This document shows positions 11,000-40,104 of a stretch of DNA of 44,795 nucleotides, one piece after another. The position numbers and the translations under genes are program-made. The DNA comes from Gemmatimonadota bacterium (lineage in GTDB: Bacteria; JAAXHH01), in assembly GCA_026706345.1 (NCBI GenBank), contig JAPOYX010000015.1, positions 1 through 44,795 of the forward strand. The letters run 5' to 3'. How positions within the stretch are numbered: position 1 is the stretch's first letter; each line of letters starts with the position of its first letter. A model generated the notes under the pieces. It had not been told where the DNA came from, did not search any database, and saw nothing but the letters and a program-made list of their open reading frames with translations.

Positions 11000-11102
11000 G
11001 ATTACCGTGCAGTCCTGTTGCCGCGCATACGGCTTTACCGTTATGCGGCAATCCACGACGGCGGTGCGGGCGAGGTTTCTACTTTTTGAGGACCATTGTC
11101 CG

Positions 11103-11684
11103 ATGCGGAATCGCGCCAGGCGGACTGGTGACATGGAAACGAACTTCGAGGTCCGCAGTTTCGACACGGAGATTACGAAGGAAGCGTACGACAGGCTGCC
11201 CAAGCTGCCGCTTTATTTCATCCTGGACAACTTGCGCAGCGCCTTCAACGTAGGGTCTATTTTCCGGACCTGCGACATCCTGCGGGTGGCGGGTTTGTTC
11301 CTGTGCGGATACACCGCCTGTCCGCCCCATGCGAAGCTGGAAAAGACCGCCCTGGGCACCATCGATTACGTCCCGTGGCGTTACTTTGAAGCGGCCGCCG
11401 ATGCGGTCGGACACCTGCAGGACAAGGGCATAGCGGTTTGGGCTGCGGAAACGACCTCGGGTTCGGTTCCGTACGGCGACGCGGTGTTTCCGGACGAACT
11501 GGCGATCGTGCTCGGCAACGAGGCGCTGGGGGTGAGCCACGGCGTGCTGGATCGTTGCGACGGCGTCGTCGAGATCCCCACGCGTGGCTACAAGAATTCC
11601 CTCAACGTGGCGTCCGCCTGCGCCGTCCTGGGATTCAAGGCGCTGGAGGAAATGGAGGGCGTTCGGAAGGAATCATCCGGCTGA
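11103..11684 (+). CDS. SpoU/TrmH-family RNA 2'-O-methyltransferase
   Basis: Predicted to methylate a ribose 2'-OH in tRNA or rRNA using S-adenosylmethionine bound in a deep trefoil knot. The protein (193 aa) has the three SPOUT motifs in order: LDNLRSAFNVGSIFRTCD (motif 1), LAIVLGNEALGVS (motif 2) and IPTRGYKNSLNVASACAVLGF (motif 3). It has no N-terminal RNA-binding extension, so it resembles the short TrmH/TrmL class. ATG 11103 has GAGGA ten bases upstream; ATG 11133 is also possible and would remove ten residues. The gene follows pyrF by about 100 bases and converges on the HemQ-like gene. The modified nucleotide cannot be inferred. Confidence 0.87.
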   Translation: MRNRARRTGDMETNFEVRSFDTEITKEAYDRLPKLPLYFILDNLRSAFNVGSIFRTCDILRVAGLFLCGYTACPPHAKLEKTALGTIDYVPWRYFEAAADAVGHLQDKGIAVWAAETTSGSVPYGDAVFPDELAIVLGNEALGVSHGVLDRCDGVVEIPTRGYKNSLNVASACAVLGFKALEEMEGVRKESSG

Positions 11685-11699
11685 GCCGGTCGACCGTTT

Positions 11700-11753
11700 C
11701 GGGCTGCTCGACTGCAATGGGCCGCTCGACCGCTACGGGCCGCTCGACCAGGT
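11700..11753. repeat. Three imperfect 18-base tandem repeats
   Basis: Consecutive units at 11700-11717, 11718-11735 and 11736-11753 share the pattern (C/T)GGGC(C/T)GCTCGAC(T/C), with changes mainly in the last few bases. They fill the convergent junction, and the third overlaps the 3' end of the minus-strand HemQ-like gene, so its last residues (WSSGP) may be repeat-derived. Confidence 0.55.
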
Positions 11754-34618: not shown

Positions 34619-34735
34619 GGATTCCCGCTTTTCCGTCTTTCGGCAGACCTTCCGAGATCCGTCCGTTTGCGTACACCCCGGTGCGTGGCGCATCGCCCGG
34701 TTATTACTACTCAGCAGACCAGGGCGGGTTTATCC

Positions 34736-37276
34736 ATGATGCTCGGAATACCGCCATACACGGCCCGGATTCGCTGTGTTTCCTCCATCCCCGCTTGCGC
34801 CATCCTCGTCGTATGCATCCTTCTCGCCGGACTGTCGGGACCGGGTTGCGGTTCGGGGTCGGACCGGCCAGACCAATCCGACCCTTACCGGAACCGGCTG
34901 GCCGATGAGATAAGCCCGTATCTTCAAAGCCACGCCAACAATCCGGTGGACTGGTATCCCTGGGGCAGGGAAGCGATCGAACGCGCGCGGCGGGAGGAAA
35001 AACCCATCTTCCTCTCCGTCGGCTACTCGACCTGCTACTGGTGTCACGTCATGGAACGCGAGGTGTTCTCCGACCCGGATATCGCGGCCGTCATGAACGC
35101 CCATTTCGTGAACGTCAAGGTGGACCGCGAGGAACGTCCGGACATCGACGAGATCTACATGACGGCCACGCAGCTCGTCACGGGCAGCGGGGGGTGGCCC
35201 AATTCGGTATTTCTCACACCCGACCTGGAACCCTTCTTCGCAGGCACGTACTTTCCTCCCGAGGACCTGCCGGGCCGGCCGGGTTTCCCGCGCGTACTGA
35301 ACCTGTTGAACGAGGCCTGGAACACCAGGCGGGGCGACCTCGTCGAACAGGCCGTCCGGATCGCCGAGGCGATCCGGACGCTCCAGCAGGACCTGGTTGC
35401 CGGGGACGGGTCCACGATCATCGACGGATCCGCCGCCGTCGACGAGGAAATCGTGGCCGGCGCCCTGACCTATATGAGGACCCGTTACGACGTCGAAAAC
35501 GGGGGATTCGGCCCCGCGCCCAAGTTCCCGCCGCCCATGCGCCTCGAACTGTTGCTGAACGAATACGAACGGACGGGCGACGAAACCCTGCTGTCCATGG
35601 CCACCCACACTCTGGATGTCATGATGAACGGCGGCGTGTACGACCATGTCGGTGGCGGATTTCACCGGTACGCCACGGATTCGGACTGGCGCATCCCCCA
35701 CTTCGAGAAGATGCTGTACAACCAGGCGGATCTCGCTCGCGTTTACCTGCTGGCCTACGACGTTACCGGAAGGGACGTCTACCGGGCTGTCGCCGAAGAC
35801 GTGCTCAATTTCCTGGGACGGGAGATGACGGGCGACGAAGGCGCGTTTTACTCGGCCGTGGATTCCGAGACAGCTGCCGTGGAAGGCAGATACTACCTGT
35901 GGTCCGAGGCGGAAATCAGGAAAACGCTGGGCGCGGACTCAGACGCCTTTCTGGCGAACTACGGCCTGGCGCCCATGCCCGACGCAGTTGCCGGGAGCAC
36001 CGGGCAGGGGAACCCGGAAAGGGCGTCCACAGGTCCCGCAGAAGACGCGGCGGAAGGCCCCACAGAAGACGCAGCGAAAGGTGCTGTCCTTTACATCCGG
36101 GGAGAGGCGGATTCCGTCCGGCTCCGTTCCGATCTCGAGCTTATGCGGTCCGAACTCAGGACGGTACGCGCGAAACGCAGCCCTCCGATGGTCGACGCCA
36201 AGGTGATCACCGCCTGGAACGGACAGATGATCGACGCGTACGCCTATGCGTGGCTGGTGACGGGAGAACGGGAGTATCTGGATAGGGCGACGCGCGCCGC
36301 GGAATTCATCCTCGAACGGCTGCGCGACGGCGAGGGCCGCCTGCGTCGTATCTATCTGGGGGGCGAGACGCGACGGGAAGCGTTCCAGGAGGATTATGCC
36401 TACCTTGCCCGGGGATTGACGCGGCTGTTCGAGGCCACCGAGGACGACCGCTGGCTGGCCGAAGCTCGGTCACTCGCGGACCGGATGAACGGCCTCTTCT
36501 GGGATTCTGCCGCGGGTGGATACTATTTCACCAGCGACGAGCAGGATCTCATCGTCCGTACCCGTAATCCCTACGACGGTGCCCGGGCTTCCGGCAATGC
36601 CATGGCCGCCCATGCGCTGCTTGCACTGGCGGGCCACACGGGGGAAACCCGCTATCGCGCCCGGGCTGCCCGTCTGTTCGAAGCCTTCGCCCCGTCGATG
36701 GAAGAGAACCCCGGCCGTTTCACCTCCATGATCCTGGCCCTGCGGAATCATCTCTACGGCGAGCGGGAATTCAGCCGGCGACGTGCCGTCCACGATGGAC
36801 GAGATGCCACCGCGGATGTGTTAATGCAGGAGACGGTCACGGGAACCGGCGTAGCGCGGACTGGAGCGGATTTCAACGATAGCGCCAAGGTCGAGGCGCA
36901 TCTCGAGGCAGCCGCCGCGGGTGGGGACGCCTTCGATGCGACTGTATCGATCCGCATCGCGGACGGCTGGCATATCAACGCCAACCCGGCCTCTTTGCCC
37001 GGACTGGTCCCCACGGCCGTGACCTTCAACGCGGACGTGCCTATTCAGGTAGACGCGCTCACGTATCCCGAAGGGGAGGCTATTCGGTTCTCCTTCGCCG
37101 ATGGTCCGCTGGAGGTTTATCGAGGGGCGATACGCCTGCGCGCCCGGCTCGTCGTCGAGGCGGTTCCTGTACCGGAAGACACGCGGCTGTACGCGACCCT
37201 GTACTACCAGGCCTGTAATGACACGGTCTGCCTGGAGCCCGGAGAGGTCGCCCTTTCGGTCCGGCTCGGCCGGTGA
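34736..37276 (+). CDS. Exported DUF255/YyaL thioredoxin-like protein fused to a DsbD-alpha-like domain
   Basis: A large protein (846 aa) in three parts. Residues 12-40 look like a signal or anchor ending near Cys38 ([14 protein letters not shown]), which could be lipidated although the lipobox is atypical. Residues 58-200 are the DUF255 thioredoxin-like domain ([32 protein letters not shown] with C-x-x-C at 100-103, [10 protein letters not shown]). A six-hairpin toroid follows to about 680 ([25 protein letters not shown] and beyond). The last 130 or so residues resemble the N-terminal alpha domain of Dsb[20 protein letters not shown], then [13 protein letters not shown] with Cys827 and Cys832 at the redox positions. 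A 24-base tandem duplication (36035-36082) encodes PAEDAAEG and PTEDAAKG in a linker. Substrates are unknown; a periplasmic redox role is inferred. Confidence 0.8.
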
Positions 37277-37389
37277 GCAGGGTCTGGAGGGTCGACACCT
37301 CGACGGTCGATGGCGTCGATGGCGTCGGTAAAAGGGAAAAAAGGAGCTGCAACCGCTTGTCCCGGTGAAAGTGTACCGGAAAGACCGCA

Positions 37390-37412
37390 GCGTATATACA
37401 TTGTGTATACGC
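37390..37412. promoter_or_regulatory. Near-perfect 23-base palindrome upstream of the PcfJ-like gene
   Basis: GCGTATA at 37390-37396 and TATACGC at 37406-37412 are arms of a 23-base palindrome in which ten of eleven base pairs match around the centre at 37401. A second related site, GCGTATACG, lies at 37440-37448. Both are in the 252-base gap before the PcfJ-like start. The arrangement is typical of paired operator sites for a dimeric repressor, but no repressor gene adjoins. Confidence 0.5.
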
Positions 37413-37528
37413 CGGTATGCTGAAGCCATTCGAGACATTGCGTATACGTCCCTAAACTGAACCCTTCGGGAATACGATACGGTAAAATGCGGCCTTTACC
37501 GGCCGGTTCGCGAACCACTGGACTGATC

Positions 37529-39232
37529 ATGCCTGCAACAAGTCTCCATTCCGATCCTCGCCTCAGCGCGCCCATGCGCCGGCATATTCGATCGCTCCAA
37601 ATGGACACGGTGGAAGCCTACATGTCCTGGTGCCGCGAGAACGGGTTCAACGCCCGCCTGAACAAGACTCTGCTCCAGCGCCGGCAGGAACTGGCCGAGG
37701 CGCGGAAGACCTCGGACCGGCACCGGAAGGACGCCGAACTCAAGGCCCACATTGCCGCTCTCGGTCTGGGTTCGGTAGCGGCTTACCGGGCCTGGTGCCG
37801 GGAGAACGGCGTCGGGGACGGCCTGCAGAAGAGCAAGACGCAGCGGCAGCAGGAGATCCGTCTCGACCGAGAGCTGCGTAACCGGAAGTTCGCCGCCAGG
37901 TCCACGGCCAGCCAGCACAAGCGAAGGCGCAGGGACACCCTGAAGCGAATCGCCGCGGGCCAGGCGGACGCGCGGGAACTGACCAGCCCCGTCCTGCTGC
38001 GCGTTCACCATCTGTTTCACCACGAGCTGAACGATCCATCCGCCCGTGCGGCCTTTCTTGAACTCCTCCTGCACGTAGAAAGAGATCGAAGGCTGTTTCA
38101 CCTGAAACCCGTCGTGCCCCGGTACGGACCGGTGCCCCGGAACAACTTTATGGACGCGCTGGCCGCGCTGGCCACGTGGCACGATCGGTGGAAGCGCAAG
38201 GCCGCGGACTGGCAGCCGGACAGTCATAACGGCCGCCGTCAATTCGGCGCGCTGGCCCGCCATCTTCTGGCAGAATACGATGTGCCCGAATGCATGGACA
38301 CCGCCTTCTTCATGGGCCTGGACGACGGGGCCAGGGTCCGGCAGCACTGGTTCGTGGAGGTAGGCACGGGCAAGAACATCCGGAAGGCCGGCATTCCGGT
38401 GCGTCTGACCAAGCGAATGGCCCATGTTTTCGCGCTTTCCGCGCCGTCCGAATACACCGTGGACGCGGCGCTCCGATGGGCGCAGGTGGTGGGAATGGGC
38501 GGCGATGACCTGCTGGCCGAAGCGGTCTGCGATTCGATGCTCGGCGAGCATTTCGACGAGGGATCGTTCTGGGAGACCGTGCTGCACTTCTTCGTGAACA
38601 ATCCCATGCTCGACGTGGCCCACGTCGGCCCCATTGTAGACTACATTCATCACCAGCGGTTCGTAAGGCAGGAGCGGCGGAATCCGGATGGGAGCGTCTC
38701 TCCCATCGACCCGCCCGAGCCGGGTTTCACGATGAAGGGACGGACGCCGGACTCCATATTGAGACGCGTGGAAGCCTGGCACAACGCGCTGTCGAAAGCG
38801 AAGGCAAAGACACCCAAAACCTGGCCGTCATCCGGTATCCGGGGCTTTGAATGGGTGGACGAGGACGAAAGCGCGGGCGAGATACGCAATTGGAAGATCG
38901 AGGAAATCCTCAACGACCGCGCCCTGATGGAAGAAGGCAAGTCCATGCGACACTGCGTGGCGTCCTACAAGACCTCGTGCGCCAACGGTCACAGGTCCAT
39001 CTGGTCCATGCAGGTAGGGTACCTGAGTTCGGGAAACACCCGCCGCGTCCTCACCATCGAACTGGTCAACAACAAGAGGTATATCCGCCAGGTACGCGGG
39101 CGGAGCAACACCCGGCCCCTGGACGCCCACAGCGGCCGCGCCCAGGACGGTTGGGACATACTGATGAAGTGGGCAAAACAGGAAGGCCTGACGCTGCCCG
39201 GCGCGAAGTCGGTTGCCATGCGAAGGATCTAG
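37529..39232 (+). CDS. PcfJ-like domain protein with duplicated N-terminal repeat
   Basis: A 567-residue protein whose last 105 or so residues match the PcfJ-like domain: MEEGKSMRHCVASYKTSC, then SIWSMQ, RVLTIELVNNKRYIRQVRGRSN and W-D-I-L-M-K-W-A. PcfJ was named from the conjugative plasmid pCF10; its biochemical function is not known. The N-terminus has two copies of a 41-residue unit (19-59 and 74-114), about 46 percent identical, each with A-Y-x-x-W-C-R-E-N-G followed by a basic helix. The basic KRRRRDTLKR at 131-140 suggests nucleic acid binding. The middle (150-460) is helical with no motif I recognise. ATG 37529 is preferred to 37487. No transfer genes or integrase are nearby. Confidence 0.72.
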   Translation: MPATSLHSDPRLSAPMRRHIRSLQMDTVEAYMSWCRENGFNARLNKTLLQRRQELAEARKTSDRHRKDAELKAHIAALGLGSVAAYRAWCRENGVGDGLQKSKTQRQQEIRLDRELRNRKFAARSTASQHKRRRRDTLKRIAAGQADARELTSPVLLRVHHLFHHELNDPSARAAFLELLLHVERDRRLFHLKPVVPRYGPVPRNNFMDALAALATWHDRWKRKAADWQPDSHNGRRQFGALARHLLAEYDVPECMDTAFFMGLDDGARVRQHWFVEVGTGKNIRKAGIPVRLTKRMAHVFALSAPSEYTVDAALRWAQVVGMGGDDLLAEAVCDSMLGEHFDEGSFWETVLHFFVNNPMLDVAHVGPIVDYIHHQRFVRQERRNPDGSVSPIDPPEPGFTMKGRTPDSILRRVEAWHNALSKAKAKTPKTWPSSGIRGFEWVDEDESAGEIRNWKIEEILNDRALMEEGKSMRHCVASYKTSCANGHRSIWSMQVGYLSSGNTRRVLTIELVNNKRYIRQVRGRSNTRPLDAHSGRAQDGWDILMKWAKQEGLTLPGAKSVAMRRI

Positions 39233-39272
39233 GTCACATGCGCAGGATCTGGGTCACATGCGCAGGATCTGG
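39217..39272. repeat. 20-base tandem repeat at the end of the PcfJ-like gene
   Basis: Units begin at 39217, 39237 and 39257 and share CATGCG(A/C)AGGATCT(A/G)GGTCA; the third is cut short after CATGCGCAGGATCTGG. The first unit contains the gene's own last codons and its TAG stop, so the array looks like repeated copying of the gene end. Confidence 0.7.
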
Positions 39273-39555
39273 AAAAAAGAAAAGCGACGGCATAAGGGCG
39301 ACCGCGTTGGAAGCGGCAAGGTATGCCGTCGCTGTATGATGGATATGCTCCCGCGGGACGCCGGAGTCATATCAATCCTATGACTATTGGCAGGCCATCG
39401 ATCATGGCCGTGATCTCGTCACGTGTTTCGATTCCTGCCTGTACTTACTCTATTAGACTCCGAACTGCTGAAAAAGATGCATTAAAAAGATGGGTTAAAT
39501 CGGTCATCGCATGCGTATTCCAGTTTCCGAAACCCCGTAGGCCAGGTCGCGAACA
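39233..39555. other. 323-base stretch without a convincing gene
   Basis: It holds the rest of the 20-base tandem repeat, a strong hairpin with an adjoining A tract at 39273-39333, and about 220 bases of mixed composition with an AT-rich part near 39440-39510. Reading frames here are short, lack ribosome sites and show no family resemblance. It may hold a small RNA, regulatory DNA or a decayed gene. Confidence 0.5.
39273..39333 (-). terminator. Intrinsic terminator on the minus strand, antisense to the PcfJ-like gene
   Basis: AGCGACGGCATA (39283-39294) and its exact reverse complement (39322-39333) form a 12-base-pair stem with a 27-base loop. On the plus strand it is preceded by GGAAAAAAGAAA, so on the minus strand the stem is followed by a T-rich tract, as in a rho-independent terminator. 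No minus-strand gene is seen upstream of it (toward higher coordinates), so the terminated transcript would be non-coding or unannotated. Confidence 0.5.
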
Positions 39556-40104
39556 GTGGATATCGAGGCAATCACCTTTCTTGCCGCCATCATCGGCTAT
39601 GCCGGGTTGACTGCGAACATGGTCCTGGTCGCGGCAAGCCGCCACCGACGGGTTTACATGCTGCCGGTCGCGCTGATCGTATTCGCCCACGTCCTGCTCG
39701 TCTGGCAATACAGGTACGAATGGGAGATCGCCCAGGCCACGAGAAATGGCTACGCGGGATTCCTTATCTTCCATACCGCGCTGCTCGGCATCCTGTACGC
39801 CCCGCTGGCGAGGGACCGGGACGCACGGCGGCTTGTGGCCTTCTCGTTCCTAGTTGCCGCCATGGGGGCCAGCGGCGCCGTACTCCGCTACGACGAGGTG
39901 GCGGTCTACCGCCTGCCCGTCTTTGTATGCGACCTCGTCGGCCTTGGCGCGTTTGCGCATTGGGTGTACGGACCGGCGAAAGGGTATCTAAACCGGTTTT
40001 CGGGACGGAACCGGCATGGTAGCGGTCGGCATGGTAGCGGTCGGCATGGCCGGCGCCGTCTCATCGTGACGGAAAACCGGCGGCAGAACGATCAGGACCG
40101 TTGA
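39556..40104 (+). CDS. Small integral membrane protein of unknown function
   Basis: A 182-residue protein with five hydrophobic segments (about 5-27, 34-51, 66-84, 92-108 and 120-136). It is not a family I can name; size and topology recall small transporter or sensor-type membrane proteins, but no motif supports either. The start is GTG 39556 without a clear ribosome site. The C-terminal tail contains a 15-base exact tandem repeat at 40015-40044 that encodes His-Gly-Ser-Gly-Arg units, giving a basic tail. The next gene starts 37 bases after its stop. Confidence 0.6.
   Translation: MDIEAITFLAAIIGYAGLTANMVLVAASRHRRVYMLPVALIVFAHVLLVWQYRYEWEIAQATRNGYAGFLIFHTALLGILYAPLARDRDARRLVAFSFLVAAMGASGAVLRYDEVAVYRLPVFVCDLVGLGAFAHWVYGPAKGYLNRFSGRNRHGSGRHGSGRHGRRRLIVTENRRQNDQDR
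40015..40044 (+). repeat. Exact 15-base tandem duplication inside the membrane-protein gene
   Basis: CATGGTAGCGGTCGG occurs twice in succession, with the start of a third copy (CATGG). Being a multiple of three it keeps frame and extends the basic C-terminal tail by one five-residue unit. Confidence 0.75.

Follow-up and report, generated by a model that had tools for sequence, protein, structure and literature searches.

Trans-acting small RNAs of bacteria that carry C-rich loops and end in an intrinsic terminator are a known kind of RNA, and PcfJ-like proteins make up the family PF14284, the namesake of which is presumably PcfJ of plasmid pCF10. Here, we analysed a stretch of 44,795 nucleotides from a Gemmatimonadota bacterium (the window), in which a pcfJ-like gene is followed by a conserved structured element on the opposite strand. 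The element resembles trans-acting small RNAs in that it is stand-alone, short and structured, has C-rich unpaired loops and ends, in two genera, in a hairpin and a U-run; it differs from them in that it has no convincing Rfam family match and is known here from sequence alone. The PcfJ of the window shares with its PF14284 relatives the C-terminal domain with EG..HCV..Y and Q..G..N, whereas its two WCRENG repeats and its chromosomal, vertically kept setting without transfer genes set it apart. With moderate confidence, we read the locus as two neighbours and not as one module, namely pcfJ and an independent small non-coding RNA that lies past its stop on the opposite strand. Our literature search on RNA regulators of the lineage (Latescibacterota with small RNA or non-coding RNA) found no such study, and the one match, for ncRNA, concerns the Alba domain. 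Among the literature matches listed for PcfJ, none mentions the name in its title or abstract, and several have titles that do not concern bacteria; searches for PF14284, for 'PcfJ-like protein' and for PcfJ with jumbo phage found nothing, and the matches to 'PcfJ domain' are genome surveys.

The pcfJ-like gene (37529–39232, plus strand) encodes 567 amino acids, and its ATG start aligns across the genus. The initial annotation had seen a PcfJ-domain protein on a chromosome-like segment without transfer genes, and both observations were borne out. The protein matches PF14284 with an E-value of 5.9e-10 (39.6 bits, curated cut-off 25), which is the single match to this family in the whole genome of the window. 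The neighbours are of the housekeeping type (LptF/G, OMP decarboxylase, NAD synthase, a DUF3418 helicase, a pyridine-nucleotide-disulphide oxidoreductase and a DUF255/DsbH-like protein), which rules out a plasmid or phage module; no transfer or phage genes were seen near pcfJ among the inspected window genes, and the window contains no tRNA. Directly upstream lies the DUF255/DsbH-like gene with a thioredoxin domain (34667–37276, plus strand), which is syntenic in eight of 11 loci of the genus. Downstream, a gene of 182 amino acids with a weak DUF6713 match below the cut-off (39556–40104, plus strand) precedes a PhyH gene, and this arrangement is syntenic in the genus to the contig limits.

The duplicated W-C-R-E-N-G unit that had been noticed at the N-terminus is also real. 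The first repeat unit (37568–37726, plus strand; residues 14–66 compared, WCRENG at residues 34–39) and the second (37733–37894, plus strand; residues 69–122 compared, WCRENG at residues 89–94) are 41% identical over 51 residues (E 3e-14 for that pair alone), and the W-C pair of each unit does not vary among 20 aligned relatives. The units are basic and predicted to be helical. The first unit also weakly resembles the Pfam family Pox_D5 (20.2 bits against a cut-off of 21.4; 37487–39232, residues 43–66 of the 581-amino-acid reading), which is a possible hint, at the level of sequence, of a nucleic-acid-binding origin.

We found PcfJ proteins in 13 of the 16 genomes searched in the phylum, including 11 of the 12 genomes of the same genus, where the ten other proteins have 72–91% identity to that of the window. 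In the twelfth genome of the genus (G007), the contig breaks off within the DsbH-like gene, directly ahead of the place of pcfJ, and thus the apparent absence of pcfJ and of the RNA from this genome is uninformative. The gene order in the genus is oxidoreductase, DsbH-like gene (8/11), pcfJ, RNA element, the gene at 39556, PhyH and a 2-phosphosulpholactate-phosphatase-like gene, as far as the contigs reach; three loci (L036, L038 and L039) have no DsbH-like gene here and keep the remaining order. No protein partner is kept beside pcfJ in all relatives, as the DsbH-like gene, a TPP enzyme or other genes occur by group. In a second genus (G001), pcfJ is split by an internal TAG (L034, 6726–8348) and the PcfJ domain forms a separate frame of 141 amino acids, which may reflect decay or recoding. 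Distant PcfJ relatives, with about 42–46% identity in the best segment, sit in other gene settings, and large phage contigs encode the PcfJ core without the N-terminal repeats. Four loci were left out of the protein alignments, namely L013 and L014 (stops in the translation), L016 (partial) and L028 (internal TAG). We conclude that pcfJ has been kept vertically as a chromosomal gene in the genus; its product has two predicted helical repeats at the N-terminus and a PcfJ domain at the C-terminus. Fifteen named records encode PcfJ relatives and are assigned to Latescibacterota/Latescibacteria, to Gemmatimonadetes/Gemmatimonadota or to no class; public records that match genomes of the same genus carry mixed labels, Gemmatimonadetes versus Latescibacterota (L004 and L005 versus L002 and L003).

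Upstream of pcfJ, paired TATAC palindromes lie in a 37-nt tandem (37390–37468, unstranded). The first is a near-palindrome at 37390–37412 with arms of 11 that are 91% complementary, and a second CGTATACG core lies within the same tandem. Dinucleotide shuffling of the intergenic stretch gave an inverted repeat of equal quality in five of 1000 cases, and the window as a whole has ten places of this kind; the palindrome is thus uncommon, not exceptional. When 11 loci of the genus were aligned, the palindromes were complete in the window only: L018, whose protein is 91% identical, keeps only the first arm, L020 is partial and the others have none. The palindromes are therefore present as the initial annotation had described them, and the alignment rules out a role as a conserved operator. 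The 20-bp repeat of 2.8 copies that duplicates the last codons of pcfJ (39217–39272, plus strand) had likewise been seen correctly. It occurs in the window and L018 only (two of 11 loci), which rules it out as a conserved signal. From their distribution in the alignment, the palindromes and repeats around pcfJ appear to be recent and not conserved. Two more short tandem arrays were seen at or close to the ends of genes, one at 11685–11749, directly after the stop of the ORF 11007–11684, and one at 40012–40049, near the 3' end of the gene at 39556; gene-end repeats may thus be general in this genome.

The feature that led to our main result was the minus-strand terminator just past the end of pcfJ. 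It consists of a perfect 12-bp stem (39283–39294 with 39322–39333) and is followed on the minus strand by TTTTCTTTTTT; the terminator scanner, which accepts loops of 3–8 only, does not list it. The terminator, which had been reported as antisense, thus exists and points to an unannotated transcript; it appears to be the 3' hairpin of an uncatalogued structured RNA that is preserved in the lineage. The RNA element covers about 39273–39463 on the minus strand (about 150–190 nt; 39274–39463 as matched by covariance model R1 and 39281–39428 by model R2), and in the 11 loci of the genus its 3' end lies directly against the stop codon of pcfJ. Over the 188 columns past the stop, these loci have a mean pairwise identity of 87.6%, compared with 88.2% for codon positions 1 and 2 of pcfJ, 64.9% for fourfold sites and 33.8% upstream of the gene. 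The spacer from the element to the next gene has 62% identity (9 of the 11 loci, with L020 and L042 left out).

The element contains three hairpins on the minus strand. H1 (39409–39423) has the form GUGA...UCAC, with a closing pair that varies from C-G to U-A, and H2 (39342–39373) is largely replaced in sequence between genera with its pairing kept. H3 (39284–39332) has an inner C-rich loop and is followed by a U-run in two genera, as in an intrinsic terminator. Across 13 sequences from four genera, 96.3% of the cells pair, a fit that is favoured because the structure was drawn, partly to fit, on the alignment on which it was tested. Two-sided changes occur at 14 of 33 pairs, compared with 3.8 ± 1.4 in shuffled alignments (0 of 500 shuffles); the ten genus rows remain related to each other under this shuffling (L023, near L024, was left out of alignment A4). 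When the structure was slid along the alignment, the paired share dropped to 21.6–48.8%. Furthermore, most of the H2 sequence has been exchanged in G013 and G014, the representatives of the two most distant genera, and H2 still pairs.

Several observations concern the strand of the element. RNAalifold prefers the minus strand (SCI 0.794, z −15.2) to the plus strand (0.665, −8.4). Single-sequence folding in the window is significant on both strands, with z-scores of −3.96 (minus) and −2.87 (plus); two of four sequences folded alone were not significant (−0.40 and −0.48), both of them with a truncated H3. In two genera, 11 of 12 loci show a U-run (at least 7 T in 10) after H3 on the strand of the RNA, whereas the opposite strand has 4–6 T by the same test in 11 loci of the genus; no U-run follows H3 in G013 or G014 (0/2), which represent the other two genera. 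The count of G-U versus A-C cells (10 versus 5) gives a weak strand signal, and a helix outside the tested structure shows, by eye, A-C cells in two sequences. All six frames hold stops in four of 13 rows, including the window, and nine rows have at least one stop-free frame; a short coding frame is unlikely on account of stops in all frames of the window and three other rows only. A promoter-site scan found no consensus promoter near the element in the window, and reading of the sequence revealed TTGACA and TATAAT-like boxes upstream of the element in G001.

To which genomes is the element restricted? Next to pcfJ, model R1 detected it in the genus and the second genus; in two more genera, the model gave short H3 matches, and at these the full versions in G013 and G014 were recovered by reading the sequence. 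Model R2, which was built with both included, matches all four genera strongly, as expected for its own members. Strong R2 matches (E 8.4e-19 or better) occur in 14 of the 16 genomes of the phylum, at one place each except for one RNA that is split over two contigs; the supposed second copy in G012 is this same RNA spanning a contig break. The RNA lies within 1.5 kb of pcfJ in all 13 pcfJ-bearing genomes of the phylum, including G001, where it is intact beside the interrupted gene, and G014, where it lies 1.4 kb from pcfJ with an epimerase gene between them; there may thus be a link with pcfJ. In G013, pcfJ was not found and the RNA directly follows, and so adjoins, a DsbH-like gene. Among 64 genomes of a second phylum, some with pcfJ relatives, R2 with stricter filters gave one weak match (E 0.063); with laxer settings on 14 genomes, which included eight of these 64, the best E-value for those eight was 0.037. 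Isolated weak R2 matches also occur in G007, G009, G010, G012, G021, G022 and G062 (E 0.013 to 0.95), and the H3 pattern was found in no viral contig. The match in G007 (L068, about 1495–1604; E 0.013) is an isolated H3-like hairpin whose inner loop is similar; it may be a paralogue or a chance match.

Taken together, conservation, structure, strand preference, single copy and occurrence without pcfJ suggest an independent small RNA. The initial annotation had combined the gene, the palindromes, the repeat and the terminator into a self-contained, regulated module. This idea is not supported, since the palindromes and the repeat are not conserved, no partner is constant and the terminator belongs to an RNA that is also found without pcfJ or beside a broken one. 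Our comparison of related loci recovered a conserved terminator, and neither conserved palindromes nor a conserved partner; homologues without the palindromes and the terminator had been named beforehand as evidence against a distinct unit, and by this rule the unit largely fails. The result separates the conserved parts of the locus from the recent ones and provides an uncultured lineage with a strongly supported RNA family that had not been catalogued. The covariance model and the exact coordinates make the RNA testable in metatranscriptomes.

Judging from its sequence, the RNA probably acts in trans through C-rich loops. We infer that it would be transcribed from its own promoter near 39450–39480 and fold into three hairpins, of which the 3' hairpin H3 with the U-run would serve as the terminator. 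This fold would expose C-rich unpaired loops: a UUCCCAU-type loop in H3 with a run of CCC on its 3' side, and GCCCC or CUCCUC in H2. The H3 loops that we observed are short and pyrimidine-rich (UUCCCAU, UCCCUAU, UUUCCAU and AUCCCAU), with a CCC-containing stretch on the 3' side, and the apical loop of H2 is C-rich. Inspection of the sequences suggests that such loops could pair with the purine-rich ribosome-binding sites of target mRNAs.

An unlikely alternative, though the most probable of the rivals, is control of pcfJ in cis. The RNA is convergent with pcfJ and could act mainly through transcription collision or by base pairing to read-through mRNA of pcfJ at its 3' end. The abutting ends in 11 loci of the genus agree with this, as does the finding that no plus-strand terminator of pcfJ was detected there except for a weak 6-bp site. 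However, the RNA exists without pcfJ in G013, is separated from it by 1.4 kb and another gene in G014 and stands beside a broken pcfJ in G001; furthermore, an RNA that acts purely as antisense would have no need of a structure kept by compensatory changes.

It is quite unlikely that PcfJ, with its basic helical repeats at the N-terminus, binds or modifies the RNA. The basic, predicted helical units and the proximity in all 13 pcfJ-bearing genomes of the phylum would fit such a complex. However, pcfJ relatives in the second phylum (42–46% identical in best segments) come with no convincing RNA match in 64 genomes, the RNA survives without pcfJ in G013, and five phage PcfJ proteins that we compared do not have the N-terminal repeats.

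A more specific version of this idea depends on the fold of the PcfJ domain (residues 432–567; 38822–39229, plus strand), which has conserved EG..HC and Q..G..N motifs. We modelled the domain from 59 sequences, 52 of them from viral contigs (54 of 65 phage loci examined, 48 used in the 59-sequence alignment, plus four others); all 59 match PF14284 at E-values up to 0.1. The model (pLDDT 89.6, pTM 0.84) has the predicted order strand-strand-helix-helix-three strands-helix. In a structure comparison with this model, all 50 listed matches were acetyltransferases, other acyltransferases or proteins that we take to share their fold (best Z 7.4); with the full-length model, 49 of the 50 listed matches were of the acetyltransferase type, and the best Z over both models was 7.4–7.8. 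The order of strands and helices predicted for the domain is like that of GNAT proteins such as HAT1, RimL and RibT, and nearly every listed match is an acetyltransferase, but Z stays below 8, there is no profile similarity and the PcfJ chain ends soon after the last helix. The best E-value with Foldseek was 0.016, and profile searches against solved structures gave weak matches only. Homology by sequence is not supported, as hhalign of the domain against 14 GNAT proteins of relatives (17 loci inspected, 16 with a frame, 14 aligned) gave probabilities of 0.3 and 0.2 percent. In GNAT proteins, the acyl-CoA motif Q/R-x-x-G-x-G/A follows the fourth strand. The PcfJ domain does not contain this strict motif and has QVRGRSN instead, in which Q and G are kept in at least 90% of the 59 sequences, N is invariant and the last G/A is not kept. 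We regard the predicted GNAT-like core as a structural lead only. There is a slim chance that the RNA and PcfJ form a ribonucleoprotein, in which the WCRENG repeats would bind the RNA and the GNAT-like domain would act on it or use it as a guide or scaffold; if true, this would be the first biochemical role for PcfJ proteins, which are widespread in phages.

We consider it very improbable that the element is a plus-strand leader or riboswitch for the gene at 39556 and PhyH. Both in the genus and in G013, a plus-strand gene does lie downstream of it, and the plus strand folds too, but the RNAalifold preference and the U-runs both indicate the minus strand. In addition, the downstream gene varies between genera, and G014 has no gene start downstream on that strand, where the neighbouring frame is opposite. 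On the element's own strand, we found no common downstream gene either, as the element is followed by convergent pcfJ, by the convergent DsbH-like gene or by an epimerase gene about 250 nt away. The least probable reading is that a strong terminator or a DNA palindrome was retained for another reason, without a functional RNA upstream. It would explain why H3 is the best conserved part and why R1 found just H3 in the two most distant genera, but H1 and H2 are conserved and covary too, and the U-run is absent from two genera that keep H3.

The independent small RNA that we favour was also compared with known RNA families. None of 4227 Rfam models (release 15) matched the window at the gathering score, and relaxed thresholds gave weak matches only, far below the cut-off and none convincing. 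The element is similar to 6S RNA in length and in occurring once per genome, but a distinct 6S-like match below threshold lies elsewhere in 14 of 16 genomes. Identity with 6S RNA (RF00013) is thus ruled out, as the best 6S matches of the genomes lie elsewhere, in the genome of the window on contig C184. This candidate (G000:C184:22439–22624) is below threshold, with one such match per genome in 14 of 16 genomes, and these candidates may represent the divergent 6S RNA of the phylum.
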